Below, piece after piece: positions 51,731 through 64,000 of a stretch of 64,000 nt of DNA. The DNA comes from Sideroxyarcus sp. GTDB taxonomy: Bacteria; Pseudomonadota; Gammaproteobacteria; Burkholderiales; Gallionellaceae. A program made the translations under genes and the position numbers. The notes below the pieces were generated by a model. It saw nothing but the letters and a program-made list of their open reading frames with translations. It made no database searches and had not been told where the DNA came from. How positions within the stretch are numbered: the stretch's first letter is position 1; the number at the start of each line of letters is the position of its first letter. The stretch is from NCBI GenBank assembly GCA_030651895.1, contig JAUSBR010000010.1, forward strand, positions 186,001 to 250,000. Reading direction: 5' to 3'.

Positions 51731-51805
51731 GGGCGGTTAGCTCAGCGGTAGAGCACTGCCTTCACACGGCAGGGGTCACTGGTTCGAACCCAGTACCGCC
51801 CACCA
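51731..51805 (+). tRNA. tRNA-Val (anticodon CAC), likely island attachment site
   Basis: Acceptor GGGCGGT/ACCGCCC, D arm GCTCAGCGGTAGAGC, anticodon stem CTGCC/GGCAG around TTCACAC (anticodon CAC), T arm GGTTCGAACC, discriminator A and encoded CCA. The island with the Tn7-like genes begins right after it. Confidence 0.97.
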
Positions 51806-52283
51806 GAACATGAAAGGCCTGCAGTGATCCGGCGGTGTTCACAAAGCTGGGGATATCAAAAATATATAACCCATTGATTTTTGATGAGTAGCGCCAGATT
51901 CTTCCCCAGCGTTGCGAAAACAGGCGCTTTCGCAAACTTGGTGAGATTTCAACAGCCGGCATTTTCACTGTTTTTTCCACTACATGTCGCGTCATCGGAC
52001 AAAAAGCTTCTCTCCCATCCAAACCCGTTCTAAGAGCTCTATCAGCTACTCAACGAAAAGCCAGTTGGGGCGGCAGCGGAGCGTCCCGCAACAGCGGGCT
52101 TTAGTTGCGCCTCCGGTAGCCGAAATCGCACCAGCAGTTCAATAAAATTGCACCAATAGTTCATAAAATCATTGGGTTATAGACTTTTTGCTTTGAGTGC
52201 GATATGGTCCGTCACATCAATTGTGCGCTTTGATTCCTAGGGTATATGCGCTCAATGTTTGTAATAGACGGGAGGTCGGACTC
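51806..52283. other. AT-rich spacer between tRNA-Val and tnsA with candidate transposon-end sequences
   Basis: No convincing gene: the minus-strand frame through 51762-52022 runs into the tRNA. TGTCGC at 51985-51990 could be a Tn7-type terminus (TGT...). Then two direct repeats with 22-base period begin at 52126 (TCGCACCAGCAGTTCA) and 52148 (TTGCACCAATAGTTCA), with a weaker third at 52105. 22-bp repeats are the spacing of TnsB sites in Tn7. The bases before 51985 (CTACA) do not recur at the right-hand candidates. Confidence 0.45.
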
Positions 52284-52988
52284 ATGGATCTTGAAGTCGA
52301 GGCATTGCTATTCAAAAGGCCTTCCAGCCAGCAGCGGAAGAACTTCAAATCGACCCTTTTTGTCGAGAGATCAACAAAGCTCAAAAGGGAGGTCTGGATC
52401 TATTCGCTCCTAGCGCATCTTATTTGGATTGAGCTCGAAGCAGATCCTCATGTCCTTGAATACAACGAAGCACCAAGACCCATACCAATCCCAATCGACA
52501 ACAGAATACTGGAGCATCAGTTCAGGTTCGCGGTTAGACGCGATGATGGGACAGTTCAGGTGATCGTAACAAAGAGCAATCACCAAACAAGCAACGAAGA
52601 TGTCGTCTCCGATCCTCTGCCGGAAAGCCGTGAGCTCCAGGCTATTCGTGCTTGGTCGCAATCCCAAGGCGTTGAATGCCGCTATCTGACAACAGAGAGC
52701 TTCGCGGGAATGGGGCCTAAACTCGCCAATTTTCGGAAGATGCTAAAGTTTATTGAGACGGCTAGCGGGAGTCACCTCCCACACGAGGATGAGACGATTC
52801 AGAACACAATAAGGCTCTTGGCGCCTGTTCAAATAAGGCGTGTGCTTCAAAGTCTTGCTCAGTTTGAAGAAACAAAAGTAATAGCTGTAATCGCCAGGAA
52901 CATTCTGAATGGGCACTACTCTGCCGCGATTGACAGGCGTGAGTTCGATGGCTTGTTGGTCATTAACTTCGAAGATAAAAAATCATGA
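52284..52988 (+). CDS. TnsA-like protein, active site apparently altered
   Basis: 234 residues from the ATG at 52284, with GGAGG upstream; the frame extends further but without support. TnsA is the PD-(D/E)xK nuclease that cuts the 5' strands during Tn7 transposition. STKLKREVWIYSLL and EADPHVLEYNEAPRPIPI match the TnsA N-terminal pattern, and K97 in VQVIVTK occupies the usual catalytic lysine place. The catalytic Asp of the usual PDF motif is replaced (EHQFRF, Q79), and the residue two before K97 is V. The C-terminal part should bind TnsC. The stop overlaps the tnsB start (ATGA). Identification rests on order as much as on sequence. Confidence 0.75.
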   Translation: MDLEVEALLFKRPSSQQRKNFKSTLFVERSTKLKREVWIYSLLAHLIWIELEADPHVLEYNEAPRPIPIPIDNRILEHQFRFAVRRDDGTVQVIVTKSNHQTSNEDVVSDPLPESRELQAIRAWSQSQGVECRYLTTESFAGMGPKLANFRKMLKFIETASGSHLPHEDETIQNTIRLLAPVQIRRVLQSLAQFEETKVIAVIARNILNGHYSAAIDRREFDGLLVINFEDKKS

Positions 52989-54895
52989 CGTCGGGACTCG
53001 GATACCGAAACAGGAGTTCAATTGCTATCTCAATAGAGGATTGGGTGGGTATTGATGAGAATGCGATGTCGGAAGCGGATGCTGTTAAATTTCAAAAGAG
53101 GAAAGAAGCAATCAGTCTTTATGTCCGGGGGTTCAAAATCAATGAGATTGCGGGGAAAACTCAGGTTAAGCCAAAGGAACTCTATCGATTTCTCAATCGT
53201 TGCGAGGCTCCAAATGCCGATGGTCGCAGGAATGGCTGGCGCGGCATCATTCCTCGGAACCGCATAGCTGCGGCCAGGCCCGTCGGAGGGGGCGACTCTG
53301 ATCGCATAGGACACGCAAACCAATTTACACAATTTCTGATCGCGAATCCTGAAATCAAGAAACAGCTTGAGTCCTTGGCAATTTGCGGTCGACTAACTGG
53401 CGAGAAGGGCCCGAAGCGGAATCTCACTGTAAAGCGCATCAAAGACGAGATGATACGTGAGTGTCGGCGAATCGGACTCACCGTTGCTGACTATCCTCTA
53501 AGTGTTTCAAGCCAGGCGTATGGTGCAATACGACGTTTTGTTGCAAAAGTAAGAGGGGAAATATCGAACAAAAATGCCGCTGTCGGAGGGATTTCGATTC
53601 TGCCCCCTGTTACTCACTGCTACCAACGACTTGAAGCAGATGGGCATTGGAAGGACCTTGAATGCACGGTGGAGCTTCCATCTCCAACAGGCCGGGGCGT
53701 CTACTATTTACCGATAGAGCGATTATGGTTGATTCCGGTCTTGGAATCGCAGAGTACCGCTGCTCTAGGCTATTCAATCGCGTATGGAGCCAACTACAGC
53801 GGAGGAGATCTCATACGCGGAGTTCGATCGGCGACTTTGCCCTGGATTCCAATGGAGCTTACAGCCAAGGGGCTTAGATATTGCAAAAATGGTGGATTTC
53901 CAAGTGGCTTAGATGAACAACTGGCTTACATCTGTTCGGACGAAATTCTTCTGGACAATCACAAGGGCCATCTCAGCGCCTTCGCGATATCACAGATCCA
54001 TCGTACCTTAGGTGCGACTCCGGTCTATGGTGCGATTGACAACCCAAACGCCAGAGCCTGTGCTGAAGGATTTTTCTCACTGCTTGAGGAGATGGTCTTC
54101 CATACCTTGCCCAACTCAACGGGTAGTACGCCGAGAAACAGGGATGTAAAAGATCCGATGGGTAATGCAATTAAGTATCGGATAACCGACCAACACGTTC
54201 ATGAAATCGCAGAAGTTGCATTGTCACGCTATAACGCGGGGTGTCCCCCCGGCTCCAGCTTGACGAGAGTTGAGATTCTTCAGCGATATGTGCGCGATCC
54301 AAGGAGCCTCGTAAGGCGAATCCCCAACGATGAACGTGAGCGGATTCAGCTTTATGACCTGGAGCTCGAGCTTAAGATCAAAGGAAATGCCGAAAAAGGA
54401 ATTCGCCCTCATGTGTATTACTTGGAATCGCGTTATACGAATCCAGTTATTGCATCGTCGTACTCCTTGATCGGAAAAAAACTAAGGGCATATGGTCACA
54501 GCGGTGACATCAGAACCTTTGAGACTTTCTTTGAAAGTGGCGCATCGGCGGGCGCGGTGATCTGTGAAAGGCGATTCCGAGGTACACCTCATAGCGCACT
54601 CACCAGAAGGCACTCAAATGCGAGCCGCAGAGTCGGAAGTCATTCGCAAAATTCAATGGGCGATGATATCGCCGGATATAGAGATTCTCTAGTTGGCAAG
54701 GCGCAGACATCAAAGCCTGCTGCAACAGAATTGGCCAGGCTTAATGCTGAATCCAGGGAGAACAAAAGAAGAATGAAAGACCTTGGGAGGTCTGACCAAA
54801 ACGATATGAATGCACCGGATCCAAAGAAGGATTCAGGAAAGAAGATCGGTAGTCAGTGGACAGACAAATTGTCGAAATTGGGTACTCAATATTAG
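52985..54895 (+). CDS. TnsB-like DDE transposase
   Basis: 636 residues. An N-terminal helix-turn-helix part (about 25-75: VKFQKRKEAISLYVRGFKINEIAGKTQVKPKELYRFL) recognises the ends. The rve/DDE core has D219 in RLEADGHW, D324 in ILLDNHKGHLS and E361 in CAEGFFSLLEE, with 36 residues between the second Asp and the Glu. A Mu-type C-terminal beta domain and a basic, Ser-rich tail (about 540-636), which in Tn7 contacts TnsC, follow. The triad is intact, so it should cut 3' ends and join strands. DNHKGH in place of DNG marks a distinct subfamily. Confidence 0.9.
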   Translation: MTSGLGYRNRSSIAISIEDWVGIDENAMSEADAVKFQKRKEAISLYVRGFKINEIAGKTQVKPKELYRFLNRCEAPNADGRRNGWRGIIPRNRIAAARPVGGGDSDRIGHANQFTQFLIANPEIKKQLESLAICGRLTGEKGPKRNLTVKRIKDEMIRECRRIGLTVADYPLSVSSQAYGAIRRFVAKVRGEISNKNAAVGGISILPPVTHCYQRLEADGHWKDLECTVELPSPTGRGVYYLPIERLWLIPVLESQSTAALGYSIAYGANYSGGDLIRGVRSATLPWIPMELTAKGLRYCKNGGFPSGLDEQLAYICSDEILLDNHKGHLSAFAISQIHRTLGATPVYGAIDNPNARACAEGFFSLLEEMVFHTLPNSTGSTPRNRDVKDPMGNAIKYRITDQHVHEIAEVALSRYNAGCPPGSSLTRVEILQRYVRDPRSLVRRIPNDERERIQLYDLELELKIKGNAEKGIRPHVYYLESRYTNPVIASSYSLIGKKLRAYGHSGDIRTFETFFESGASAGAVICERRFRGTPHSALTRRHSNASRRVGSHSQNSMGDDIAGYRDSLVGKAQTSKPAATELARLNAESRENKRRMKDLGRSDQNDMNAPDPKKDSGKKIGSQWTDKLSKLGTQY

Positions 54896-54915
54896 TGGTA
54901 CGCGGAGGGCACGGC

Positions 54916-55869
54916 ATGGAACAACCTCAAATGTACGATTCGGCGGACGGAGTCCCATTCCGACGCAAGATGCGCATAAAGACGCCTCCTGTGACCGAAG
55001 CATGTGAAAGAGTGCTGGAGGCGTTCAGTACGGGTTGTGGGAGCAGCATGCTAGTAGGGCGGCCAAGACTCGGTAAGACGTTTGCCGCACGATGGATCTG
55101 TCAGTCCATCAAGGAACTAATGGGGCCTCTCTATTGGTATGAGGTCTCTTTCGAAAAGCCGACTCGCCCATCCGAGAGCGGTTTCTTTGCGATGTTGCTT
55201 AAGAGTGTTGACCACAAGTACTTGAAATCCCGGCGTCCCAGAGACCTTCGCGATCGCATTGGAGAATTCATGATCGAGCGTGCAAGTGAATCTCCTTCTG
55301 GGACCGTGATACTAATGCTTGATGAAGCTCAAAACCTGACTGACATACATTGGACCTGGCTTGCTGAGCTCAGCAATACGGTCGATAAGGCGGGATATTC
55401 GCTATTTACACTTTCGACTGGTCAAAAGACGCTCTATGTGACGCGAAATTCCTTGCAAGAATTAGCATCAGATCGTGACAACGATTTTATCATTGGAAGA
55501 TTCTTCCTAGATATGAATAATTTTCGGGGGCTGCGAACAGAGGAGGACTTAAGGCTAACCTACCGAGAGTACGATAATACGAAACTTGACACTTCGAAAG
55601 GAATTTCGTGGGTTGAGAGCGCCTTGCCGATAGCCTACAGAGCCGGATGGAGACTCGAAAATCTCTCAAGTCAATTTTGGAGCGCATATTGTGAAGTTTG
55701 GAAGAGGGCGGGCCGAAACGATAGCATCGAAATACCGATGACCTATTTCGACTTGCTTGTCCGGCAGATTCTCGGTGACTCTGCAACATTCAATGTTGAA
55801 GAACCTGCAATAGGCTTTGAGCAAGCAACTGAGATGATTGCACGTAGTCAGTTTGCGAAGTCCATCTAG
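54916..55869 (+). CDS. TnsC-like AAA+ ATPase
   Basis: 317 residues from the ATG at 54916, preceded by GGAGGG; the frame runs on to 54856 inside tnsB. Walker A is GRPRLGKT (residues 48-55) and Walker B VILMLDEAQN (D136, E137). TnsC forms ATP-dependent filaments on DNA and links the target selector TniQ/TnsD to the TnsAB transposase. Spacing to tnsB is 20 bp and to tniQ five bp. Confidence 0.9.
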   Translation: MEQPQMYDSADGVPFRRKMRIKTPPVTEACERVLEAFSTGCGSSMLVGRPRLGKTFAARWICQSIKELMGPLYWYEVSFEKPTRPSESGFFAMLLKSVDHKYLKSRRPRDLRDRIGEFMIERASESPSGTVILMLDEAQNLTDIHWTWLAELSNTVDKAGYSLFTLSTGQKTLYVTRNSLQELASDRDNDFIIGRFFLDMNNFRGLRTEEDLRLTYREYDNTKLDTSKGISWVESALPIAYRAGWRLENLSSQFWSAYCEVWKRAGRNDSIEIPMTYFDLLVRQILGDSATFNVEEPAIGFEQATEMIARSQFAKSI

Positions 55870-55874
55870 GATCA

Positions 55875-57491
55875 TTGCAGTCTAGATTCAACAAAATGGG
55901 ACGTGTAAACCGCAGAGTTGGAAGTATCAGCGAATTCGAATCTTGGTGGTCGATCGGACACAAGTTTGCGTATCTCAATCGCGTGAGTTTCTCGGACTTC
56001 ATTTTTTCGGTGCAACGAGACGAAAAACTTAGAACGGCTGCGCACAACTTTAAGCCCCACCTACTGGATAGCATTGACAAACGGACGGCGGCAGAATTAT
56101 TGGAAGTGCCCCAATCTACACTTGAATATGCATGTGACCGCAAGTACGTGCCTTGGTTTCTTAGCACGTCATCAGCACTTGAGCCCCATTTTCGATACTG
56201 CCCAGAATGCTTGAAGAACGGATTCCATTCTCCTGCACATCAATTGGCATGGTTAAATAAATGCCTAGTGCATGGCTGCACTTTGTTGACGGGATGTCCT
56301 GCTTGCGGAATAAAAATTAGCTATTCGTCTGATAAATATCCTAGTCATCGCGTTGATCGATACCACTGTCCTTGTGGAGAGCCGCTGTGGAGTGAGCTAC
56401 CATCCCCTAATTGGCCAAAACCAATGGAGGACAAAGCATTCAGGACTATCCGCACTTATGTCAACTGGATTAAGACTCTGCGAGGAATTCCTGGGCACGG
56501 CTCAATATCGGCCGCGCTAGAATTCATTGACCAAGAAGGACGAGGCAGGAGTACCATGACGGCGTGGCTCATGGGGTGTATTCGAGCAATATCCGCCCCT
56601 CCTGCCAGCATAGAAGCCGCATTTGTCGATACCATTCATCCATACCACCAACGCCTAGTCTCGTCAGATGTCGACCCTGCACTTATTTGCGCGGCTATTG
56701 AAGAGTTCGGGTATCTAAGGCTTTTAGGAAGCTATCCATACTGGTATGAGCAGAACAATCGGGTTCCGATGATGCTCCCGGTCGTCAAGTCCATTCGAAA
56801 AAGCCTCTGTCGAGGCCACATCGGATGCATTAAGGCTCTACGGACTCTAATGAACGCAAGGGTGCGAAACTGGGCATGTGGAGATGACTTCTACTGCGAG
56901 CATGCAGAGCATCCTTTCAGGTTCGCCAACGTATGGTTGTCACTGCATGATAGTGATAATGAAAGACATATTCGAGCGGCGGCCTTTGCCTTAGCTGACT
57001 CTCTCAGTAGCATGGGGGTGGTTTCCTTTGCGAATAGTACTGATAAGCCGTACAGGAGGCATTGGTCTTCATGTGGTCGAAAGGACTTTATCGGTGACAA
57101 GACATTGCGAGTTGACTTGTGCAAGGCACTGGCCGGTTTGATGGAGCGATTGTGGATTTTCGAGGCATTCAGGAGTGCCTACAATTTGCAGACAGATCCG
57201 ACATTCTGGCAGGAAAATTACAGACAGCCATTTACTTCTGCGAATAAACCTTTCGTACTAGTGGAAGCTGGTTCGGGGAACACTCTTGAAGTATGGATCT
57301 GGCATCGAGGCTCCATCCGGCAAGTGGTGAAGCCCGCCGGTGCAAGGGCGCAGCGCAGACATGCCAGGCTGGTGAAATCGCAAGCTGCACAGGAAGAGGT
57401 GAGAATTCGTGCTGCAGGAAATCCGTTGGACAGACTGCATGACAGTATGGTTTCGAAAATAGGCGCACAAGGATCATGTTTTGATAAATAG
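55875..57491 (+). CDS. TniQ/TnsD-like target-site selector
   Basis: 538 residues from a TTG at 55875 (an ATG seven codons on is the alternative), the size of Tn7 TnsD. The TniQ zinc fingers are complete: YCPECLKNGFHSPAHQLAWL, KCLVHGCTLLTGCPACG and CPCGEPLW. A long C-terminal part (about 200-538) resembles TnsD, which binds a specific attachment site. The tRNA-Val gene upstream of the element is the natural candidate for its target. No cas gene or CRISPR array lies next to it, so guide-RNA targeting is not supported. Confidence 0.88.
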   Translation: MQSRFNKMGRVNRRVGSISEFESWWSIGHKFAYLNRVSFSDFIFSVQRDEKLRTAAHNFKPHLLDSIDKRTAAELLEVPQSTLEYACDRKYVPWFLSTSSALEPHFRYCPECLKNGFHSPAHQLAWLNKCLVHGCTLLTGCPACGIKISYSSDKYPSHRVDRYHCPCGEPLWSELPSPNWPKPMEDKAFRTIRTYVNWIKTLRGIPGHGSISAALEFIDQEGRGRSTMTAWLMGCIRAISAPPASIEAAFVDTIHPYHQRLVSSDVDPALICAAIEEFGYLRLLGSYPYWYEQNNRVPMMLPVVKSIRKSLCRGHIGCIKALRTLMNARVRNWACGDDFYCEHAEHPFRFANVWLSLHDSDNERHIRAAAFALADSLSSMGVVSFANSTDKPYRRHWSSCGRKDFIGDKTLRVDLCKALAGLMERLWIFEAFRSAYNLQTDPTFWQENYRQPFTSANKPFVLVEAGSGNTLEVWIWHRGSIRQVVKPAGARAQRRHARLVKSQAAQEEVRIRAAGNPLDRLHDSMVSKIGAQGSCFDK

Positions 57492-57513
57492 CTGACTGTC
57501 GTAGGTTCGTTAG

Positions 57514-57871
57514 CGTCACGCTTTGACTAATAGAGACACGTTATCAGGAATACAGACCATCATCCTCTGTGAAATTGTCATGGAAGTGAATGAGGCCTTG
57601 GGATGCACTCCAATATCTATACTGGACGCTAATCAAGGTGCCAATGAAGTTTATTATATTAGTCAAACCGTGACGGCCTGAAAAAGAGCGTCTACTGCTT
57701 CCGCTTCGCTTTGACTATTAGTCAAAGCGTGACGCACAAGCATTGAGATGGAGTCCATCATCAATTGTCTTCTAGTGAGACCGTGATGCCCTATTGGGCA
57801 AACCCGACGGGACTTGAGATGACGGCGCCTCAGCCCTCTGTATCAGTTTGACTATTAGTCAAGCCGTGACG
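57514..57871. repeat. family of 19-bp repeats downstream of tniQ
   Basis: CGTCACGCTTTGACTAATA occurs at 57514-57532 (+). Its relatives on the minus strand are at 57657-57675, 57716-57734, 57853-57871 and, diverged (14 of 19), 57770-57788. A further plus copy is at 58397-58415. Two copies are extended into palindromes (CGCTTTGACTA-T-TAGTCAAAGCG at 57708-57730 and TTTGACTATTAGTCAA at 57847-57862). Four same-direction copies spaced 35-65 bp resemble transposase sites; a regulator operator is the alternative. Confidence 0.8.
57580..57681 (+). pseudogene. remnant of a DUF2384 (Xre/MbcA/ParS-type) antitoxin gene
   Basis: The frame MEVNEALGCTPISILDANQG...ANEV is the core of a DUF2384 toxin-binding domain and matches the intact gene at 58456 (NVALGCAPISMLDSAQGVAEV). 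The frame has no upstream domain and ends inside a copy of the 19-bp repeat at 57657. The gene therefore looks truncated. Confidence 0.7.
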
Positions 57872-57955
57872 CCCTGTTATCCTGGACAGGACGACTGATT
57901 CATCTCATTCGTCGGTGCGGCGTAATGACGAGCTGATTGTATCTTTCAAGGAGCT

Positions 57956-58015
57956 ATGAACTTGAAATGTCCAGTATGCGGCGCGGCTGAACTGATCCAC
58001 GTCCGGGAGGACTAG
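57956..58015 (+). pseudogene. remnant of an MqsA/YgiT-type antitoxin N-terminus
   Basis: AAGGAG precedes an ATG coding MNLKCPVCGAAELIHVRED followed by a stop. CPVCGAAELIH is the zinc-finger start of MqsA-type antitoxins; the matching second CxxC and the DNA-binding half are missing. No MqsR-like toxin frame is adjacent. Confidence 0.6.
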
Positions 58016-58107
58016 TCTGTGGAACCAACTTTGCCGCAGCATACATTGCAGCATGCCGATATATAATCATGTTGTTATCGCTACTTCCTACAATTAGGCC
58101 AACCTGA

Positions 58108-58150
58108 TGTCGCAAAATTAGTCCTCCGCTCGCGAACTAATTTTGCGACA
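58108..58150. repeat. perfect 15-bp inverted repeat of transposon-end type
   Basis: TGTCGCAAAATTAGT (58108-58122) and its exact complement (58136-58150) are separated by 13 bp. A related GCGACA lies at 58175-58180 in the same orientation as the right arm. TGTCG...CGACA is the end signature of Tn7/Tn5053-type elements, and TCGCAnnAnnAGTTC also fits the direct repeats at 52126 and 52148. This may be the right end of the element or a junction of two ends. Confidence 0.6.
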
Positions 58151-58396
58151 AATATGCTTGCTGGACGTAAGTCTGCGACAAGGCTGCGAGTGTCGCGTGG
58201 ATCCGCGTTACTTAACTCCACTTCTTTCGGCCACAATTGGGTTTCTGCAATACAGTCCATCGTTTGATCAGAACAACACTAGGATGGGGCCGGTTGTCGG
58301 CCTTATGTGGAGCGCTACAAGCATGAGACGCAGGACAATATGCCATTTGGCCTACATAGCCTATCTGCGCTCATGAGTGGCTGGAATATACACAAG

Positions 58397-58415
58397 CGTC
58401 ACGGTTTGACTAATA
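58397..58415 (+). repeat. sixth copy of the 19-bp repeat
   Basis: CGTCACGGTTTGACTAATA, in the same direction as the copy at 57514 and 41 bp before the first ATG of the DUF2384 membrane protein. The first copy likewise precedes the DUF2384 remnant, so the pair may be an operator or promoter of these genes. Confidence 0.75.
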
Positions 58416-58455
58416 CAGTCCTATCCACCGTGCTAAATTCGCATGGTAGAGTGGC

Positions 58456-58782
58456 ATGCCTTGCCCACTTGGAATGACTCTTATGGTCTCGTACTCAGAT
58501 CAGTTCGCTCGCTTCCTGCCTGTATTGCTCGCAGTCATGATTTTCATCGGCTTGGGTATGCTGGCGATTTGGGCGGCCAAGAGAGAACGGCGAACCGAGC
58601 GAATGGTCAATATCGAGGCAGAAACGGAAAAGATTTTCGGAAGTCAGAGCAAGGCAAGGGGCTGGATGAACCAGAACAATGTGGCACTAGGATGTGCCCC
58701 CATATCTATGCTCGATTCTGCTCAAGGCGTGGCCGAAGTCAGAAAAGTTCTGGCATCTATCTCTCGCGGAGGGCTTGTGTAA
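58456..58782 (+). CDS. membrane-anchored DUF2384 (MbcA/ParS-like) protein
   Basis: 108 residues from the ATG at 58456; ATGs at 58474 and 58483 would shorten it by 6-9 residues. A hydrophobic helix (FLPVLLAVMIFIGLGMLAIWAA, about 18-40) followed by RRTER is a membrane anchor with inside-positive charge. Residues ~62-108 (SKARGWMNQNNVALGCAPIS, LDSAQGVAEVRKVLASI) are the DUF2384 toxin-binding half of Xre/MbcA/ParS antitoxins. The DNA-binding half is absent and no RES/NAD-degrading toxin lies next to it, which is unusual for this family. Confidence 0.7.
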   Translation: MPCPLGMTLMVSYSDQFARFLPVLLAVMIFIGLGMLAIWAAKRERRTERMVNIEAETEKIFGSQSKARGWMNQNNVALGCAPISMLDSAQGVAEVRKVLASISRGGLV

Positions 58783-58856
58783 TTGCCACTGGCTTGCCAT
58801 TCTGTCGAACTAGCAAATCAGTGATGTTGGCATACCGTTATTGCTCCGAGAAGACT

Positions 58857-59051
58857 ATGAAAGATCAAAAGTACAAACTTGAGGATTTGGTGGCGCAGTG
58901 CGATGCAAAAGCCGTAGCACCAGCAGACGATGAATGTGTGCAGGATGCCAAGTGCGACCACGACTGGCAGCCTGATGGACAAACAATGACGGCCGTCAGA
59001 TTTTCCTGCACAAAGTGCCATAAATCCAAACTGAGTGGCCTCGATATATGA
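58857..59051 (+). CDS. small protein: MazE-like tail plus zinc-ribbon
   Basis: 64 residues from an ATG with GAGAAG upstream. MKDQKYKLEDLVAQCDAKAV resembles the toxin-binding tail of MazE/PemI-type antitoxins (YTLEELLAQCDP...). The rest has C33, H35, C51 and C54 in a zinc-ribbon-like pattern (CDHDWQPDGQ..., CTKCHK). The longer frame that begins at 58443 overlaps the preceding gene and is not supported. No toxin is adjacent; it may be a hybrid remnant. Confidence 0.5.
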   Translation: MKDQKYKLEDLVAQCDAKAVAPADDECVQDAKCDHDWQPDGQTMTAVRFSCTKCHKSKLSGLDI

Positions 59052-59204
59052 AGTAGCTTTCGCTGCTTCACCACGACAGTCAGCACAAGTAAACAGAGAC
59101 AGACCTCGGTTTTCGCAATCAACGACCGAAAACCTTGGCCCCTGATTACTCTTTAAGGTATGAGAAATGGTGAGGTGAGCGTGAAAATATTTTTAAAGTG
59201 ATAA

Positions 59205-59771
59205 ATGAGTCGAGCTATCACCATCACACATCAGCTAATTGAGGAGGGTATTTCTGCCCGCGCTCATTTCCAAGTTTGGTGGGCGCTTTGCAACTTGGCC
59301 TTGCCAAAGTACGAATCTACAATGAACAATTTAGGCTATGTTGATTTCTTTCATGCTTCGGATTCTGGACACTACAAGTTGTTTTTCCTGGCGTTGTCGA
59401 AGATTTTTGATCGCGGCGACAGTCGCGTTGCCGGCATTAGCGAACTCAAAAAGGCATTGGAGGCGGAAGGGAAGGTTAACATTGCGCTTAGAATTTCAGA
59501 AGAATTAGAACCCATTGAGCCATTAGTAAAGCGTGTCTTGGCTATTCGAAACAGGACTATTGTACATAACGAGCATTCAATGCCTCGAAGAAAGGTTTAC
59601 AAAGTCAACGGTATCACACCGAATCAAATTCGCCTTGTTATAGATACCGTTTGCGCTACGATTAACCGCGCTGCTCGAGATCAAGGCATTACTAACACTA
59701 TATTTGAGAGTGATCGAATGGAGCGAGCTACGCTTGGCATGCTCGAAAAGCTAGACCGCTGGAATGCATAG
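59205..59771 (+). CDS. HEPN-domain protein (AbiU2-like)
   Basis: 188 residues, fully helical. The R-N-x4-H motif of HEPN nucleases is present (R115-N116 ... H121 in IRNRTIVHNEH). The N-terminal HFQVWWALCNLA and LFFLALSKIFDRG resemble the AbiU2-type family. HEPN proteins of defence and toxin systems cut RNA. It stands in the island with AT-rich codon use, 25 bp before the ankyrin gene, possibly as one operon. No nucleotidyltransferase (MNT) partner is visible. Confidence 0.75.
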   Translation: MSRAITITHQLIEEGISARAHFQVWWALCNLALPKYESTMNNLGYVDFFHASDSGHYKLFFLALSKIFDRGDSRVAGISELKKALEAEGKVNIALRISEELEPIEPLVKRVLAIRNRTIVHNEHSMPRRKVYKVNGITPNQIRLVIDTVCATINRAARDQGITNTIFESDRMERATLGMLEKLDRWNA

Positions 59772-59795
59772 CAATGAACGACATGGGAGAAACCA

Positions 59796-60419
59796 ATGAG
59801 GCAATACAGGATTTTTGAACACCCATCTGGCGAGGTAGAAGTAATAAAGAAAGGTTGGTCTTGGCTAGCTTTTTTCTTTCCGTGGTTATGGGCACTAATA
59901 AATAGGCTTTGGCTTGTTGCTTCGGCCATCTTTATTTTGTCATTCATGACATTTGCCTTTGGCAATCTGATTACGAGAGATGCCCCGCTCATTATCACGC
60001 TTTTTATGAGTCTTTACTTTGGCGCATTTGGTCACGATTGGCTGCGTGGCAGCCTAGAAAAGAAAGGATTTACTTATATGGGCGCGCTGAAAGGTGCCAG
60101 CGCGGCGGAAGTCACGTCTACTTATATTGAGAATGTGTTTCCTGAAAAGTTCGCTATGACACCATTGATGGTTGCGGCTTCAAAGGGCGATATCCAGCAA
60201 GTTATGAAAATTCTTGCTTCTGGTGTGGATGTGAATTCAACAGATAATCGTGGCGCAACTGCGCTGATGTACGCGGCCATAAATGGGCAATTAGAGGTTG
60301 TCAAAACACTATTAGAAGTCGGTGTAAACCCTAGCCTGAAAACTGCACTAGGTTTGACGGCACTTGATTACGCAAAGAGGGGCAATCAAGAAGAAATTGC
60401 ACGACTCTTGGCAGTATGA
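59796..60419 (+). CDS. membrane protein with ankyrin repeats
   Basis: 207 residues. The first ~100 form a DUF2628-like module: EHPSGEVEVIKKGWSWLAFFFPWLWAL, a second helix LVASAIFILSFMTFAFGN and a third. The C-terminal part has three ankyrin-type repeats (TPLMVAASKGDIQQVMKILA, TALMYAAINGQLEVVKTLLE, TALDYAKRGNQEEIARLL). The repeats face the cytoplasm and should bind a protein partner. It follows the HEPN gene closely. Confidence 0.75.
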   Translation: MRQYRIFEHPSGEVEVIKKGWSWLAFFFPWLWALINRLWLVASAIFILSFMTFAFGNLITRDAPLIITLFMSLYFGAFGHDWLRGSLEKKGFTYMGALKGASAAEVTSTYIENVFPEKFAMTPLMVAASKGDIQQVMKILASGVDVNSTDNRGATALMYAAINGQLEVVKTLLEVGVNPSLKTALGLTALDYAKRGNQEEIARLLAV

Positions 60420-60459
60420 CCTGTATCGTTTGATGTGACTTTGACTTGAATATGTGCCG

Positions 60460-61557
60460 CTAATAGACCTGCGTAAGAACAAGACTGTTTAATACTTGCT
60501 GGCATAGCGGCTTAATTCGTTTGAATGCTTCTGATGTTTTGCTTTTTTCGGACTCCGGCCCGCCTGCTTGACAGTGAAGTCCAATTGCCTTTCCGCGAAA
60601 GAACAATTGGTATGTGGTGGCCTCTTGATACAGTTTCGTGCCGGCACGTTCAATGTTTGTTGTGATCTGTAGCCAGTATCCTGTTTGTCCTTCTAGGTTG
60701 AAATTGCCTGAGTCAGCGTAGGTTGATCCACTTGGAACAAGACTTTTGATTTCTCCAGACGAGATTACGTTCACCATATCTTGCCGTGATGGGTTATATC
60801 CTTCCCCATCTCGAATGTCCAAAATTATGAGTTCCAATCCGGTGCCGTTTTCACTTTGCCATTTTTTGACAATATGAGGCCTTTCCCCTTCCTTGGCCAC
60901 CCAAGATCGAGGAACTTGCAAAGTTAGTTTAATACCTTGAGATTTTCCTGTGCCGTCCGAATGGTATCGCTGCCGAAAGCCATCTGTGAATTCACCAACA
61001 GGATTAGTCATATAGTTCACGGCCAGTAGATACTCAAGGACTGGGCTTTCAATTTCCCCTTTTGATCTGCTTTTGACCTGGCCGAGGAAGTTGGCTGCAA
61101 CTTCCTTCGTGATTCGCTGGCGCGCCAATGTTTCTTGGATTTTTGATTGAAGGACGGTAGCAGTTTCCTGGAAAAGGTTTTCGCCTAAACTAAGCCTGAG
61201 TTGTTTTTCTAGCTTGGCTTTGATATCGGGGAATGTGGAGCCAAACTGCGCGCGTGCCAACTCAACGCTCACTGACAATTCAGGATGCTCCGCATTTATT
61301 CGCGACAAAGTAAATTCTTGGCCGAGTACAAAGCCGTAGGCTTGCGCAAGCCCTTTTATTGAAATGGGGTTGAAATTGAGGGCGAAGGTTGTGGAGGGAA
61401 AAGCAGAAAGAACCAGAATAATTAACGACCAACGCTGAAACCTGACTTGTGCTAGGTCAATTACTAGATGACAGAATTTACTCCTCACGCCATCAAGTTC
61501 GCATTCAGCATTGTCCAATGCGTTGCGCTCAATGGCGTTTTGGGTGAGGTAGCTCAT
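60460..61557 (-). CDS. hypothetical exported protein
   Basis: 365 residues. A signal-like helix (WSLIILVLSAFPSTTFA, about 43-59) lies behind a 40-residue N-terminal extension, so the real start may be downstream. The mature part shows no family that I know: an alpha-helical half (LEKQLRLSLGENLFQETATVLQSK) and a beta-rich half (VPRSWVAKEGERPHIVKKWQ; GQTGYWLQITTNIER). Minus strand, opposite to its neighbours. AT-rich. Confidence 0.65.
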   Translation of the reverse strand: MSYLTQNAIERNALDNAECELDGVRSKFCHLVIDLAQVRFQRWSLIILVLSAFPSTTFALNFNPISIKGLAQAYGFVLGQEFTLSRINAEHPELSVSVELARAQFGSTFPDIKAKLEKQLRLSLGENLFQETATVLQSKIQETLARQRITKEVAANFLGQVKSRSKGEIESPVLEYLLAVNYMTNPVGEFTDGFRQRYHSDGTGKSQGIKLTLQVPRSWVAKEGERPHIVKKWQSENGTGLELIILDIRDGEGYNPSRQDMVNVISSGEIKSLVPSGSTYADSGNFNLEGQTGYWLQITTNIERAGTKLYQEATTYQLFFRGKAIGLHCQAGGPESEKSKTSEAFKRIKPLCQQVLNSLVLTQVY

Positions 61558-61642
61558 AGCATCACCCTACCTGCCAACCTATATTTCGTCAATATGCATA
61601 AAGAATGCACCGAAACTTAATTGCTTTTTTCGATTACCTGAA

Positions 61643-61796
61643 TCAACCCAACGCTTTCAGCAACAACTTCGTCGCCCATACAATCATCATCACCGTAAAC
61701 AACTTGCGCAGCAATTCCACCTTCATGCGATGCGCGGCCTTTACGCAGAACGGTGCAGTGAGCACGCTGGCGAGTGCGACCCAAAGTGGCGCGAAT
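61643..61796 (-). pseudogene. C-terminal remnant of a TauE/SafE-type permease
   Basis: On the minus strand the frame codes LWVALASVLTAPFCVKAAHR, MKVELLRKLFTVMM and ATKLLLKALG, the typical end of sulfite/anion exporters of the TauE/SafE family. It stops upstream at a TAA, so at most 50 codons remain. The surrounding 61558-62425 holds nothing else that I can support. Confidence 0.6.
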
Positions 61797-62425
61797 TATC
61801 TGGCTCAGCTACGAAATTAGTTGGACTGACATCAGTGACTGCTTTGGTTCGGGAAGCGGCCCTGGTTTGTGAATCGTTACGATGACCGCTATGGCCGAGT
61901 ATCAGTCACTGACTTACATTCAAAAGGAGCATAAAGCTGCTGAGTAAGAATCTGCTTCTGTGCACTGATGTGCCTCCCCCATCGTTCCATGATGCCCAAA
62001 TGAGTGATGAAATATGCATGAAATAAACTTATACAAACTTATACTCAAAGGTATAACTTCATATAACTCCATGAAACATTGTAAGAATGGCCGTATTTTC
62101 AAACAACTGAAGCAGTGTCCGCTCTGGCCTGCTAACCAGTCCAATTGCATCGCCCTATGAGTGGACTGCTTTGGCCGAACATCCGACCATGCTTGTCAGG
62201 TGAAGTCAGAGCTATTTATACAAATCCTGTAAATTGCCAACCATTCCATTTGCTTGTTATCGTTATTGGATGGACAATGCAACGGTGGCTGATGCGATTT
62301 CTACTCGCGCCTCACGCAGCCTTCACCATCCGCACTGAATCAACCATCCGAAATGACCTGCCGATCTTTGGCTAGGGGATACGGCTTTTCTTTTTTTCTG
62401 GTCGCTCTGACAAAGGAGTCTTGCA
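61797..62425. other. gene-poor stretch
   Basis: Only short frames without ribosome sites or family signatures on either strand. The sequence is AT-rich with no repeat from the families above. Confidence 0.5.
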
Positions 62426-63076
62426 ATGTCTAACAAAACCAACAAATCTTTACTTTCGCCGAAGTTCGCTTTGGCGCTTCAGTTCGCCAACGAAATACAC
62501 AGCACACAGTCCCGCAAGGGTTTGGGAGCGCCTTACATCTCTCACCTGATGGCGGTGAGTGGTCTGGTGATGGAATACGGTGGTAATGAAACACAAGCAA
62601 TTGCGGCGTTGTTGCACGATGCCGCCGAGGACTGCGGTGGACGGCCGATGCTGGAAACCGTGCGCGTCCTTTTCGGTGAGGAAGTGGCCGAGATCGTGGA
62701 AGCCTGTACCGACACCTTTGACAATCCCAAACCAGAATGGCGGCCTCGTAAGGAAGCCTATTTGGAGGCAATGGCCAAGAAGCCAAGTCTAACAAAACTC
62801 GTGTGCTGCGCGGACAAGTTGCACAATATAACCAATACGCTGCGTGACATCAGGATAGCTGGGGCGGCAGCTTGGAAGGAGCGGATGGAGAAAACGGAGA
62901 ACAACACCAGTGCAAAGCAGTGCTGGTATTACCTTGGCTGTCTTGAGGCGCTTTCTGCGGGATGGAGCGATCCAATCTGCGATGAGTTTGCTCGCTCGGT
63001 CATGGTGTTGTGCGAACTAGTGGGCACAACAAAGGATGTATCCAAGGCCCGACAATGGATGGGAGGTGAGGGATGA
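62426..63076 (+). CDS. HD-domain protein, (p)ppGpp-hydrolase-like
   Basis: 216 residues with AAAGGAG seven bases before the ATG. The HD signature set of RelA/SpoT hydrolase domains and small alarmone hydrolases is present: RKGLGAPYISHLMAV, LLHDAAEDCGG (HDxxED), CADKLHNITN (ADKLHN). The protein has no synthetase, TGS or ACT domain. It may hydrolyse (p)ppGpp or a related nucleotide in the cytoplasm. In the island it stands near a HEPN protein and may be part of a stress or defence function. Confidence 0.82.
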   Translation: MSNKTNKSLLSPKFALALQFANEIHSTQSRKGLGAPYISHLMAVSGLVMEYGGNETQAIAALLHDAAEDCGGRPMLETVRVLFGEEVAEIVEACTDTFDNPKPEWRPRKEAYLEAMAKKPSLTKLVCCADKLHNITNTLRDIRIAGAAAWKERMEKTENNTSAKQCWYYLGCLEALSAGWSDPICDEFARSVMVLCELVGTTKDVSKARQWMGGEG

Positions 63077-63129
63077 GCACAGCTCCAATCCCGGAAACAC
63101 AATTCCTACTTGAGAAGGAGAATTGAATC

Positions 63130-63594
63130 GTGTCTATTGTCATTGATCGACAAATTCAAAGACCGTCACCGAAAAACGTCGAAGGGATAGAGCTTGTAGA
63201 AATACCGAAGGACTCGCCTTCGCTTCGTTTGCAAACTCCAACCTATACGAGAGTTGATCCAACCTGGTGGGAGGTTGAGATGGCTGTCGGTTCTTGTCAG
63301 GGGGAAATGGATGGAGGATTCGGTGAGTTTTGTGTCTTGTCAAAAATTGATTCCAACACGTATGTGCAGACTGCCATTTGTCTCGGCGAACCTAATTCCT
63401 GGCGACTAGAGTGGCGAATCACAGAGAAGGACGGGACATACACCCATTTCTTTGCGCGGAATCCATGTGACGACGAAAATGCGGACACATTGGATAGTGT
63501 CGACGATGTTATTCTGGCGTTTAAAGCGTTTTACCAGAACAGGGGGCTGCCTGATTCGTTGATGTGGAAGAAGTATGTCATTTGGGGGGAATAG
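63130..63594 (+). CDS. hypothetical protein
   Basis: 154 residues from a GTG with GAGAAT upstream. Soluble, with no known motif. It contains several aromatic-rich strands (TWWEVEMAVGSCQGEMDGGF; WRLEWRITEKDGTYTHFFAR) and an acidic helix (CDDENADTLDSVDDVILAFKAFY). It follows the HD gene by 53 bp on the same strand and may be cotranscribed. Function unknown. Confidence 0.6.
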   Translation: MSIVIDRQIQRPSPKNVEGIELVEIPKDSPSLRLQTPTYTRVDPTWWEVEMAVGSCQGEMDGGFGEFCVLSKIDSNTYVQTAICLGEPNSWRLEWRITEKDGTYTHFFARNPCDDENADTLDSVDDVILAFKAFYQNRGLPDSLMWKKYVIWGE

Positions 63595-63602
63595 CAAGGC
63601 TT

Positions 63603-63625
63603 CATCTGACAATACCTGTCAGATG
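63603..63625. terminator. inverted repeat after the hypothetical gene
   Basis: CATCTGACA - ATACC - TGTCAGATG, a perfect 9-bp stem eight bases after the stop codon. No T run follows, so its role as terminator is uncertain. The remaining bases to 63898 hold no gene that I can support. Confidence 0.45.
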
Positions 63626-63898
63626 TTCGGCCATAGCCGAAAGCAGAAGTAGCGCACCGTTATCCAGAATTGGAGTCAGCCACAAGTGGCTATCGAGCCT
63701 GAAAAATGGATAGCAAGTTGGCAGAAATTCAAGGCCATTTCATCGAAGTATCCGATGTCGAACTTCGGCTACCACATCGTAGGTTTCGAAGTGCGTGGTA
63801 GGCATGGCGCAGTGTATCTACCAACTCCTGGGTGAACCCGGGGTTGACACAGATGCACAATATACGTTGGAAGGGGGAGTAAGCAGAATCAAGTGATC

Positions 63899-64000
63899 AT
63901 GCAAGAGGCGACCAAAGAGTTCATTCAACATTACCAAATTGACCTTGAGCAGTTACGCAGCATCAAAAGTGAGTTTCAAATTCTTTGCCTCTGGCACAAA
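63899..64000 (+). CDS. start of a gene cut by the window end
   Basis: An ATG at 63899 (or the GTG two codons before) opens a frame of 34 codons, MQEATKEFIQHYQIDLEQLR..., that is still open at 64000. The product start is helical and too short to identify. Confidence 0.4.
   Translation, partial: MQEATKEFIQHYQIDLEQLRSIKSEFQILCLWHK

Follow-up and report, generated by a model that had tools for sequence, protein, structure and literature searches.

A Tn7-like element of Sideroxyarcus sp. that lies beside dif and carries a TnsA with an apparently lost active site

Introduction

The subject of this report is a 33,936-bp Tn7-like element that begins in a 64,000-nucleotide stretch of DNA from Sideroxyarcus sp. 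(Gallionellaceae; assembly GCA_030651895.1, contig JAUSBR010000010.1, positions 186,001 to 250,000 of the forward strand; hereafter the window) and extends beyond its end. In Tn7, TnsA cuts the 5' strands and TnsB the 3' strands, and when the catalytic site of TnsA is mutated, cut-and-paste is abolished while replicative transposition persists (PMC8649781). That TnsA may be lost while a resolvase is gained is already known in principle from Benler et al. (2021; PMC8649781), according to whom Tn7-like clades 2 and 3, including Tn5053, lose tnsA, gain tyrosine or serine recombinases (tnsR) and are probably replicative; tnsA was sought there with PF08721, PF08722 and alignments from CRISPR-associated transposons (CASTs). 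The Tn5053 family is described as res site hunters that target plasmid resolution sites (PMC11406308, PMC8649781), and the IS1202 family as dif site hunters with a single gene for a TnsB-like transposase, inserted 5 bp from the XerC arm (PMC10132070). Two uses of tyrosine recombinases are also relevant: in Tn4651 the TnpS/TnpT core lies between the divergent genes (PMC7157771), and TnsF-like proteins are inactive tyrosine recombinases that serve as target selectors (PMC10293859).

The Sideroxyarcus element resembles Tn7 and other TnsABC plus TniQ/TnsD transposons in gene order, a DDE-type TnsB, an AAA+ TnsC, a TniQ, the TnsA fold and repeat arrays at both ends; unlike Tn7, it has an apparently lost TnsA active site, dif as its landmark, a 7-bp instead of a 5-bp duplication and an internal pair of genes for a tyrosine recombinase and a KfrA-like protein. 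With clades 2 and 3 as described by Benler et al. (PMC8649781) it shares the apparent loss of TnsA function and a tyrosine recombinase, but unlike them it retains a TnsA, one that lacks catalytic residues. The Tn5053 family also inserts next to site-specific recombination sites and has a resolvase and a TniQ as presumed selector, but its targets are the res sites of Tn3-type elements, whereas the window element and several relatives lie at Xer-type sites, namely dif and dif-like cores (PMC11406308, PMC8649781). A TnsB-like transposase and a fixed orientation beside dif or pdif are shared with IS1202, but the window element is multigenic and lies 34 bp from the XerD-type arm (PMC10132070). The TnpS/TnpT-rst system of Tn4651 likewise combines a tyrosine recombinase with a divergent helper gene and a core between them (PMC7157771). 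Among open-licence PMC papers we found neither a TniQ-type transposon at dif nor a kept pseudo-nuclease TnsA or KfrA-like partner in a replicative Tn7-like element, and the main text of PMC8649781 contained no match for KfrA, dif or Xer.

Results

Core genes and ends of the element

Coordinates below are those of the window, continued beyond its end for the right part of the element; handles beginning with G denote genomes compared and those beginning with L denote loci or stretches compared. A first-pass annotation of the window had described a tnsA-tnsB-tnsC-tniQ module beside tRNA-Val, and the positions and order of these genes, the adjoining tRNA, the TnsB triad (read directly from the residues) and the overlap of tnsA with tnsB were all recovered (Table 1). 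With a DDE-type TnsB beside an AAA+ TnsC, a TniQ selector, both of the latter recognized by Pfam, and terminal inverted repeats with site arrays at both ends, its assignment to the Tn7-like transposons stands, and judged by these features the four-gene core is genuine and forms the left part of the element. The extent given for the module, 52126-57491, was too short: the element reaches 85766, beyond both that limit and the window. The contrast drawn between DNHKGH in TnsB and a common DNG also needs qualifying; the sequence does differ, but DNG is no yardstick, as four of six aligned relatives read DNAKAN.

The ends (51831 and 85766) were placed by comparison with genomes of the same genus (G134, G135, G128, G123), three of which (G134, G128, G135) had an empty site, and by the terminal inverted repeat, whose 13 bp are exact and which occurs as a single copy per orientation in the 54 kb scanned. 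A fuzzy scan allowing up to 3 substitutions found TnsB-site-like repeats at both ends, three on the left and four on the right (85622-85759), plus one chance-like match at 97358, outside the element. The outermost bases are GGCGGTGT, and GTGATCC (7 bp) stands on both sides; for this to be a 5-bp duplication extended by two chance matches, the ends would have to be unequal. The left end lies 25 bp from the end of tRNA-Val, and by eye the insertion falls in the loop of an apparent tRNA-Val terminator hairpin. The host belongs to the genus of Sideroxydans WB-IL-08.

A TnsA fold with an apparently lost active site

The protein in the TnsA position had no credible match in Pfam, NCBIfam or PADLOC, and a sequence search of the PDB found none either. 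The Pfam TnsA models, a check that the first-pass annotation had proposed, missed it, as they missed all four Burkholderiales TnsAs tested alongside (L003, L004, L005, L007). Structure prediction, also proposed there, was more telling: an AlphaFold2 model built from 53 alignment rows (predicted local distance difference test score 88, predicted template modelling score 0.84) retrieved Tn7 TnsA chains as its four best Foldseek matches in the PDB, namely 1t0f_B (E 1.5e-8), 1t0f_A, 1f1z_A and 9bw1_M (the last from the TnsABCD transpososome structure), with E values of 1.5e-8 to 4.9e-7, whereas the fifth match had an E value of 0.03. Because these top four matches are Tn7 TnsA chains, the frame at 52284-52988 is by this predicted fold a TnsA, the opposite of the unrelated frame that the first-pass annotation had named as a possible refutation. 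It also scored 65.8 bits against a hidden Markov model (HMM) built on 11 canonical relatives.

The HMM alignment was gapless through the hairpin and placed A44 at the helix Glu, R81 at the Asp and V95-x-K97 at the E-x-K motif. R81 occupied the Asp column in four of five alignments, and the gapless run from V84 to K97 favors it as the Asp position. In the predicted secondary structure, strands 82-86 and 91-96 are joined by a turn at 87-90, so that residue 81, not 77, would stand opposite residue 95. While the fold of a TnsA endonuclease was recovered, the Glu, Asp and Gln/Glu-x-Lys of its active site were not: three of the four residues are gone, only K97 is kept and the enzyme is apparently inactive. 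The first-pass annotation was thus right about the missing Asp and the lysine at its proper place, but the residue that it had aligned with the Asp, Q79, took that position in none of the five alignments.

Degenerate TnsAs among relatives

Scans of genome contigs and viral contigs with single TnsB sequences returned no relative, but a TnsB alignment used as query did. The resulting set of 87 loci (the window, six plasmid loci and 80 from the TnsB-alignment search) included 73 with an upstream open reading frame of usable length; six of these were dropped as not TnsA, leaving 67 TnsA rows, the window included. The full set of E, D, E and K was present in 11 rows (eight Bacillota, a Klebsiella plasmid, Nitrospira and Sideroxydans WB-IL-08), and Lys alone was lost in two, both Bacillota. 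The Glu of E-x-K was lost in 53 of the 67, the window not counted, and all but two of these (L040, L103) were from Burkholderiales, going by the title of the record or the host of the plasmid. Asp was kept in 51 of the 53, Lys in one (L033) and the helix Glu in one (L076), with a gap at the last position in one more. By this count of related elements, which the first-pass annotation had suggested, the window TnsA is not an isolated case: degenerate TnsAs are common in a large Burkholderiales clade, and nearly all of them retain Asp. Because it has lost Asp too, whereas 51 of its 53 degenerate relatives keep it, the window TnsA with its R81 is, by alignment, among the most extreme of the 67 rows. 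Beyond these rows, the TnsAs of two Bacillota genomes, G621 (L145) and G812 (L144), read Asn at both the Glu and the Asp position and lack E-x-K; since these Bacillota TnsAs are degenerate as well, loss of the active site apparently happened more than once.

Dead-type tnsA genes had a median ratio of nonsynonymous to synonymous substitution rates (dN/dS) of 0.214 (range, 0.124 to 0.411) over 89 usable of 136 pairs from 33 loci, the pairs being non-independent, and TnsB for the same pairs ranged from 0.06 to 0.44, mostly near 0.1. Because these values are low, the dead-type TnsA of relatives is best read as a protein preserved under purifying selection without its catalytic residues. The window tnsA itself had no relative in 398 other genomes of the order (E 1e-5), and the selection result covers relatives only.

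Other departures from the canonical site were seen as well. The TnsA of the distant relative G1598 (L165:797-1465) carries Cys at the position of the helix Glu and reads S-V-K where E-x-K is expected, with Asp present, and two Bacilli TnsAs (L034, L049) have Glu and Asp with Ala in place of Lys (EVAY). Two TniQ matches each were found in L029, L034 and L049.

dif as the shared landmark

Beyond the right end lies ATTTGACATAATATACATTATGCG (Table 1), which fits the dif consensus. With up to 2 mismatches it occurred once in 27 of 34 genomes of the genus, that of the window among them, whereas G131 had two copies and the remaining six had none; the second G131 site (L119:60-83) has two mismatches and lies at a contig end. 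G131 carries a related element, with a canonical TnsA and a TnsB about 28% identical to that of the window, that ends in two 17-bp repeats, the last base 46 bp from dif; the genes to the right are the same and the contig is without tRNA-Val. By eye, an apparent Wadjet-type four-gene set stands next to tnsA in this element (L118:48-5563).

Among Bacillota, 24 distinct TnsB-bearing genomes were searched in sets of 11 and 14, the second with a slightly looser pattern. A dif match with up to 3 mismatches was found in 16 and none in eight. In 11 of the 16 (G159, G160, G167, G168, G218, G220, G485, G526, G658, G762, G812), dif lay downstream of TnsB on its own contig and on the other strand, with no more than 2 mismatches and 0.9 to 33.6 kb away; for G159, G160, G167 and G168, from the set of 11, the contig was identified by its length. 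In the other five it lay on another contig, the best match having 1 mismatch in G162, 2 in G161 and G621, and 3 in G158 and G720. A reversed control pattern gave none in the set of 11 and five chance matches in the set of 14, and second, weaker dif matches occurred in some Bacillota genomes; three-mismatch matches accordingly mean little. End repeats were seen by eye beside dif in at least eight of the 11 genomes, and exact ends were placed for few; in L030 the ends read TGT...ACA, the 5 bp ATAAT are duplicated, and 58 bp separate the right end from dif if the duplication is included. In a more distant proteobacterium, G1414, TnsB and TnsC were followed by a repeat array and then dif, in the same polarity; G1598 had no dif match.

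In total, 14 genomes (the window's, G131, the 11 Bacillota and G1414) had TnsB upstream of dif on the same contig, 14 of 14 in one polarity. A random gene is expected within 35 kb upstream of dif in less than 1% of 4-Mb genomes; the binomial value, 6e-20, overstates independence, as some genomes are close kin. Repeated insertion on a fixed side and in a fixed polarity is what characterizes a dif site hunter, and the landmark common to the element and its relatives is, on these positions, dif and not tRNA-Val. The first-pass annotation was correct that tRNA-Val adjoins the left end, but the relatives share dif. Apart from the window, TnsA was canonical in 11 of these genomes and degenerate in G812, and in the stretch examined for G1414 the Asp and E-x-K were seen, the helix Glu was not.

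On plasmids of Cupriavidus, four loci (L108, L109, L110, L114), chosen for close TnsB and KfrA and not a random sample, carry TnsA-less elements between tyrR and kfrA, the recombinase and KfrA-like genes treated below. A dif-like core, for example TATAGACATAA-GCGCAG-TTATGTCTAAA, follows their right ends after 34, 36, 34 and 34 bases, respectively, as measured from a shared AACCAA with no duplication fixed. In pBB2 (L110:12871-22911), two TnsA-less elements stand in tandem between tyrR and the core and kfrA, which argues against target immunity. Chromosomal dif was poorly recognized in the Burkholderiales clade with dead TnsA and in Nitrospira, where 26 of 28 entries were searched and four gave a match (one with 1 mismatch, three with 3), and an inverted-repeat search for ends at 25 Burkholderiales loci gave none or weak candidates in most.

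An internal recombinase and KfrA-like pair

Between the cargo and the right end, inside the element, lies a divergent tyrR/kfrA pair with a palindromic core between the two genes (Table 1). The catalytic residues of the recombinase (R, K, HxxR, H, Y) are all present, and an active-looking recombinase with a core beside its gene is what a resolvase-type system would comprise; the alternative of a TnsF-like target selector was rejected on account of these residues. Such a core, with similar arms around a 6-bp spacer of varying sequence, was found in seven of 13 intergenic stretches, five between the two genes (window, L072, L107, L111, L113) and two upstream of tyrR (L112, L077). The same layout, with the pair inside and kfrA just before the right end, was seen in pBN2 (L113) and Burkholderia aenigmatica (L111; end match weak). 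We compared the pair with two pWW0 proteins that we take, by topology, to be TnpS and TnpT, the latter annotated only as a DNA-binding protein. The KfrA-like protein was rejected as a TnpT homologue, as pairwise BLASTP found no similarity (Expect 2.6), and the recombinase gave a short, weak match to the partner protein. The association of dead TnsA with the recombinase pair was dropped as an unbiased statistic, given unequal flanks, a betaproteobacterial query and plasmids pre-picked for a nearby pair.

Cargo and other features

Cargo at and beyond the window end includes a WYL regulator, Wadjet JetABCD, Shango SngABC and a retron-type reverse transcriptase III-A (PADLOC models), in a stacked defense island at L021:2844-18206, beyond the window. 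A small cargo protein at 59796-60419 has ankyrin repeats in its C-terminal half and an N-terminal half that matches the NCBIfam Erum7620 family below cut-off. To the right of tniQ, at 57512-58418, five or six TATTAGTCAAASCGTGACG-type repeats stand in both orientations and may be operators or what is left of a small nested element; the GCGTCACG-type repeats of the same region were rejected as transposon ends, since the empty site and the inverted repeat put the ends elsewhere. Within it, a 15-bp perfect inverted repeat, TGTCGCAAAATTAGT, with a 13-bp loop (58108-58150) looks like the ends of another transposon, and similar ACTAATTTTG repeats were found at the ends of TnsA-less elements in L110 and L114.

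Table 1. Positions of the element, its genes and flanking sites (window coordinates; those above 64000 lie beyond the window)
Feature	Position	Strand	Remarks
tRNA-Val (CAC)	51731..51805	+	ARAGORN; left flank of the element
Left copy of 7-bp target duplication GTGATCC	51824..51830		both junctions read; right copy after 85766, outside the window
In-window part of the 33,936-bp Tn7-like element	51831..64000	+	runs on to 85766 (contig C16:271766)
Left terminal inverted repeat GGCGGTGTTCACA	51831..51843	+	mirror copy at 85754-85766
Left-end array of TnsB-site-like repeats	51838..51946		at 51838, 51901 (inverted) and 51929
tnsA, predicted TnsA fold	52284..52988	+	active-site positions A44 / R81 / V95 / K97
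tnsB, DDE transposase	52985..54895	+	D219, D324, E361 present; ATGA overlap with tnsA
tnsC, AAA+ ATPase	54856..55869	+	AAA_22 1.1e-10; listed start GTG; an in-frame ATG at 54916 is an alternative
tniQ, target-selector family	55875..57491	+	538 aa from TTG as listed; Pfam TniQ 1.9e-7; PADLOC TniQ 5.7e-9
tyrR, tyrosine recombinase	83261-84442	-	Phage_integrase 5e-17; beyond the window
Palindromic core TATTTGACATTA-GAGTAA-TAATGTCAAATA	84492		between tyrR and kfrA; perfect 12-bp arms, 6-bp spacer
kfrA, KfrA-like protein	84593-85561	+	KfrA_N 6.4e-13; beyond the window
dif ATTTGACATAATATACATTATGCG	85801-85824		34 bp from the right end of the element, on the XerD-type arm side

Discussion

The best overall explanation of these sequence data, to which we give a probability of roughly 60%, is that TniQ and TnsC target the element to dif, that TnsB transposes it replicatively in the presence of a dead TnsA and that the internal pair resolves the product. 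TniQ with TnsC would steer insertion to dif, perhaps by sensing an Xer protein on the site; TnsB alone would break and join the 3' strands, and a TnsA unable to cut the 5' strands but staying as a structural partner would leave a cointegrate. The tyrosine recombinase and its KfrA-like helper would then resolve the cointegrate at the internal core. A second resolver may be at hand as well, as dif beside the right end of each copy would give a cointegrate two dif sites in direct repeat. Cointegrates in place of cut-and-paste, as the first-pass annotation had anticipated, are the natural expectation, because Tn7 TnsA catalytic mutants move replicatively and the window TnsA has lost catalytic residues; an apparent resolution system does lie inside the element.

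A broader version can be put forward only tentatively: a Tn7-like branch might hunt Xer-type sites, both chromosomal dif and dif-like cores of plasmids, such that a core always on the same side yields direct repeats, XerCD or a plasmid tyrosine recombinase resolves them and cut-and-paste becomes dispensable. If cleavage were dispensable in this way, it would be understandable that most of the Bacillota members examined have a canonical TnsA, that the window, two Bacillota and the Burkholderiales clade have a degenerate one and that the Cupriavidus plasmid members have none.

Several observations weigh against these readings. A 5-bp target duplication and outermost TGT...ACA are usual for Tn7-like elements, though we did not take them as defining; here the duplication is 7 bp and TGT stands five bases inside the repeat. 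The Foldseek template modelling scores to TnsA were modest (0.43 to 0.62, with root-mean-square deviations of 5.6 to 8.0), and the window TnsB sits on a very long branch without a sure place in a quick-mode tree that served for grouping only. In the Burkholderiales clade with dead TnsA, no dif-like core was found near the tentative right ends (L111, L113, L037, L058, L078), where only 3-mismatch palindromes occurred; L062 had an ambiguous one. G1414 is without tniQ in the 251 bp between tnsC and dif. Finally, six intergenic stretches out of the 13 were without a visible core, namely those of L062, L076 and the four loci of Cupriavidus, where it lies beyond the element; and similarity to the pWW0 proteins is limited to the short, weak match of the recombinase.

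The alternative that survives best, which we consider possible if on balance doubtful, concerns this pair: it could be cargo or a plasmid multimer-resolution system, with cointegrates resolved by RecA, by host XerCD at dif or never. Some plasmids carry the pair at places far removed from TnsB; in the best 60 of 63 TnsB and best 60 of 83 KfrA plasmid records, taking the best place per record, KfrA lay within 20 kb of TnsB in just 10 of the 27 records common to both, and pHG1 accounts for two of these 10 as duplicate copies. The Cupriavidus elements that lack TnsA, moreover, are flanked by tyrR and kfrA and do not contain them, and in theory the action of XerCD on two neighboring dif sites would be enough. 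The pair is nevertheless inside, with kfrA beside the right end and a core, in the window, L111 and L113.

It is unlikely that the element targets the tRNA-Val gene, as CASTs I-B2 and I-D target tRNA genes, with dif a mere neighbor in this genus. The window element alone cannot separate dif from a tRNA-Val that ends 25 bp to its left, and its tnsA end faces that gene, as the tnsA end of Tn7 faces its target gene. The similarity of TniQ to the G131 and Cupriavidus proteins is restricted to the N-terminal third, so a private target is possible. There are precedents in PmcCAST, with a TniQ-targeted tRNA site, and CyCAST, inserted 30-33 nt downstream of tRNA-Leu (PMC11406308, PMC10293859). Yet in G131 the element adjoins dif while tRNA-Val is on a different contig, and the 20 kb read there contained no tRNA. 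In the 11 Bacillota relatives and in G1414, too, dif follows downstream on the contig of the element.

We give little credence to the view that the element is a decaying fossil whose TnsA is simply rotting. The lack of a TnsA relative in the 398 other genomes of the order and the long TnsB branch would fit it, but all four tns genes are open, the motifs of TnsB, TnsC and the recombinase are intact, and degenerate TnsAs elsewhere appear to be under purifying selection. Very improbable is the shifted active site that the first-pass annotation had offered as an alternative (E77, D87 or D88 with K97): K97 is retained, the hairpin turn holds two acidic residues and one alignment (A4, by MAFFT, the one used for the model) sets E77 over the Asp column, but the helix Glu and the Glu of E-x-K are gone too, the gapless HMM alignment reads R81 and V95, and E77 precedes strand 82-86, out of register with 95-97 in the predicted secondary structure.

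If replicative transposition to dif with a dead TnsA and an internal resolution system is the correct reading, dif, a highly conserved and usually single-copy site, would join the attachment sites of TniQ-type transposons, and defense islands would be parked at the replication terminus. The element would also provide an example from nature of a TnsA that lost its nuclease and was retained for a structural role, one that lets the non-cutting roles of TnsA be asked about, and a dif-directed transposase would offer a broad, guide-free landing pad. The repeated change from cut-and-paste to replicative transposition would also find an explanation: the target brings its own resolution system.

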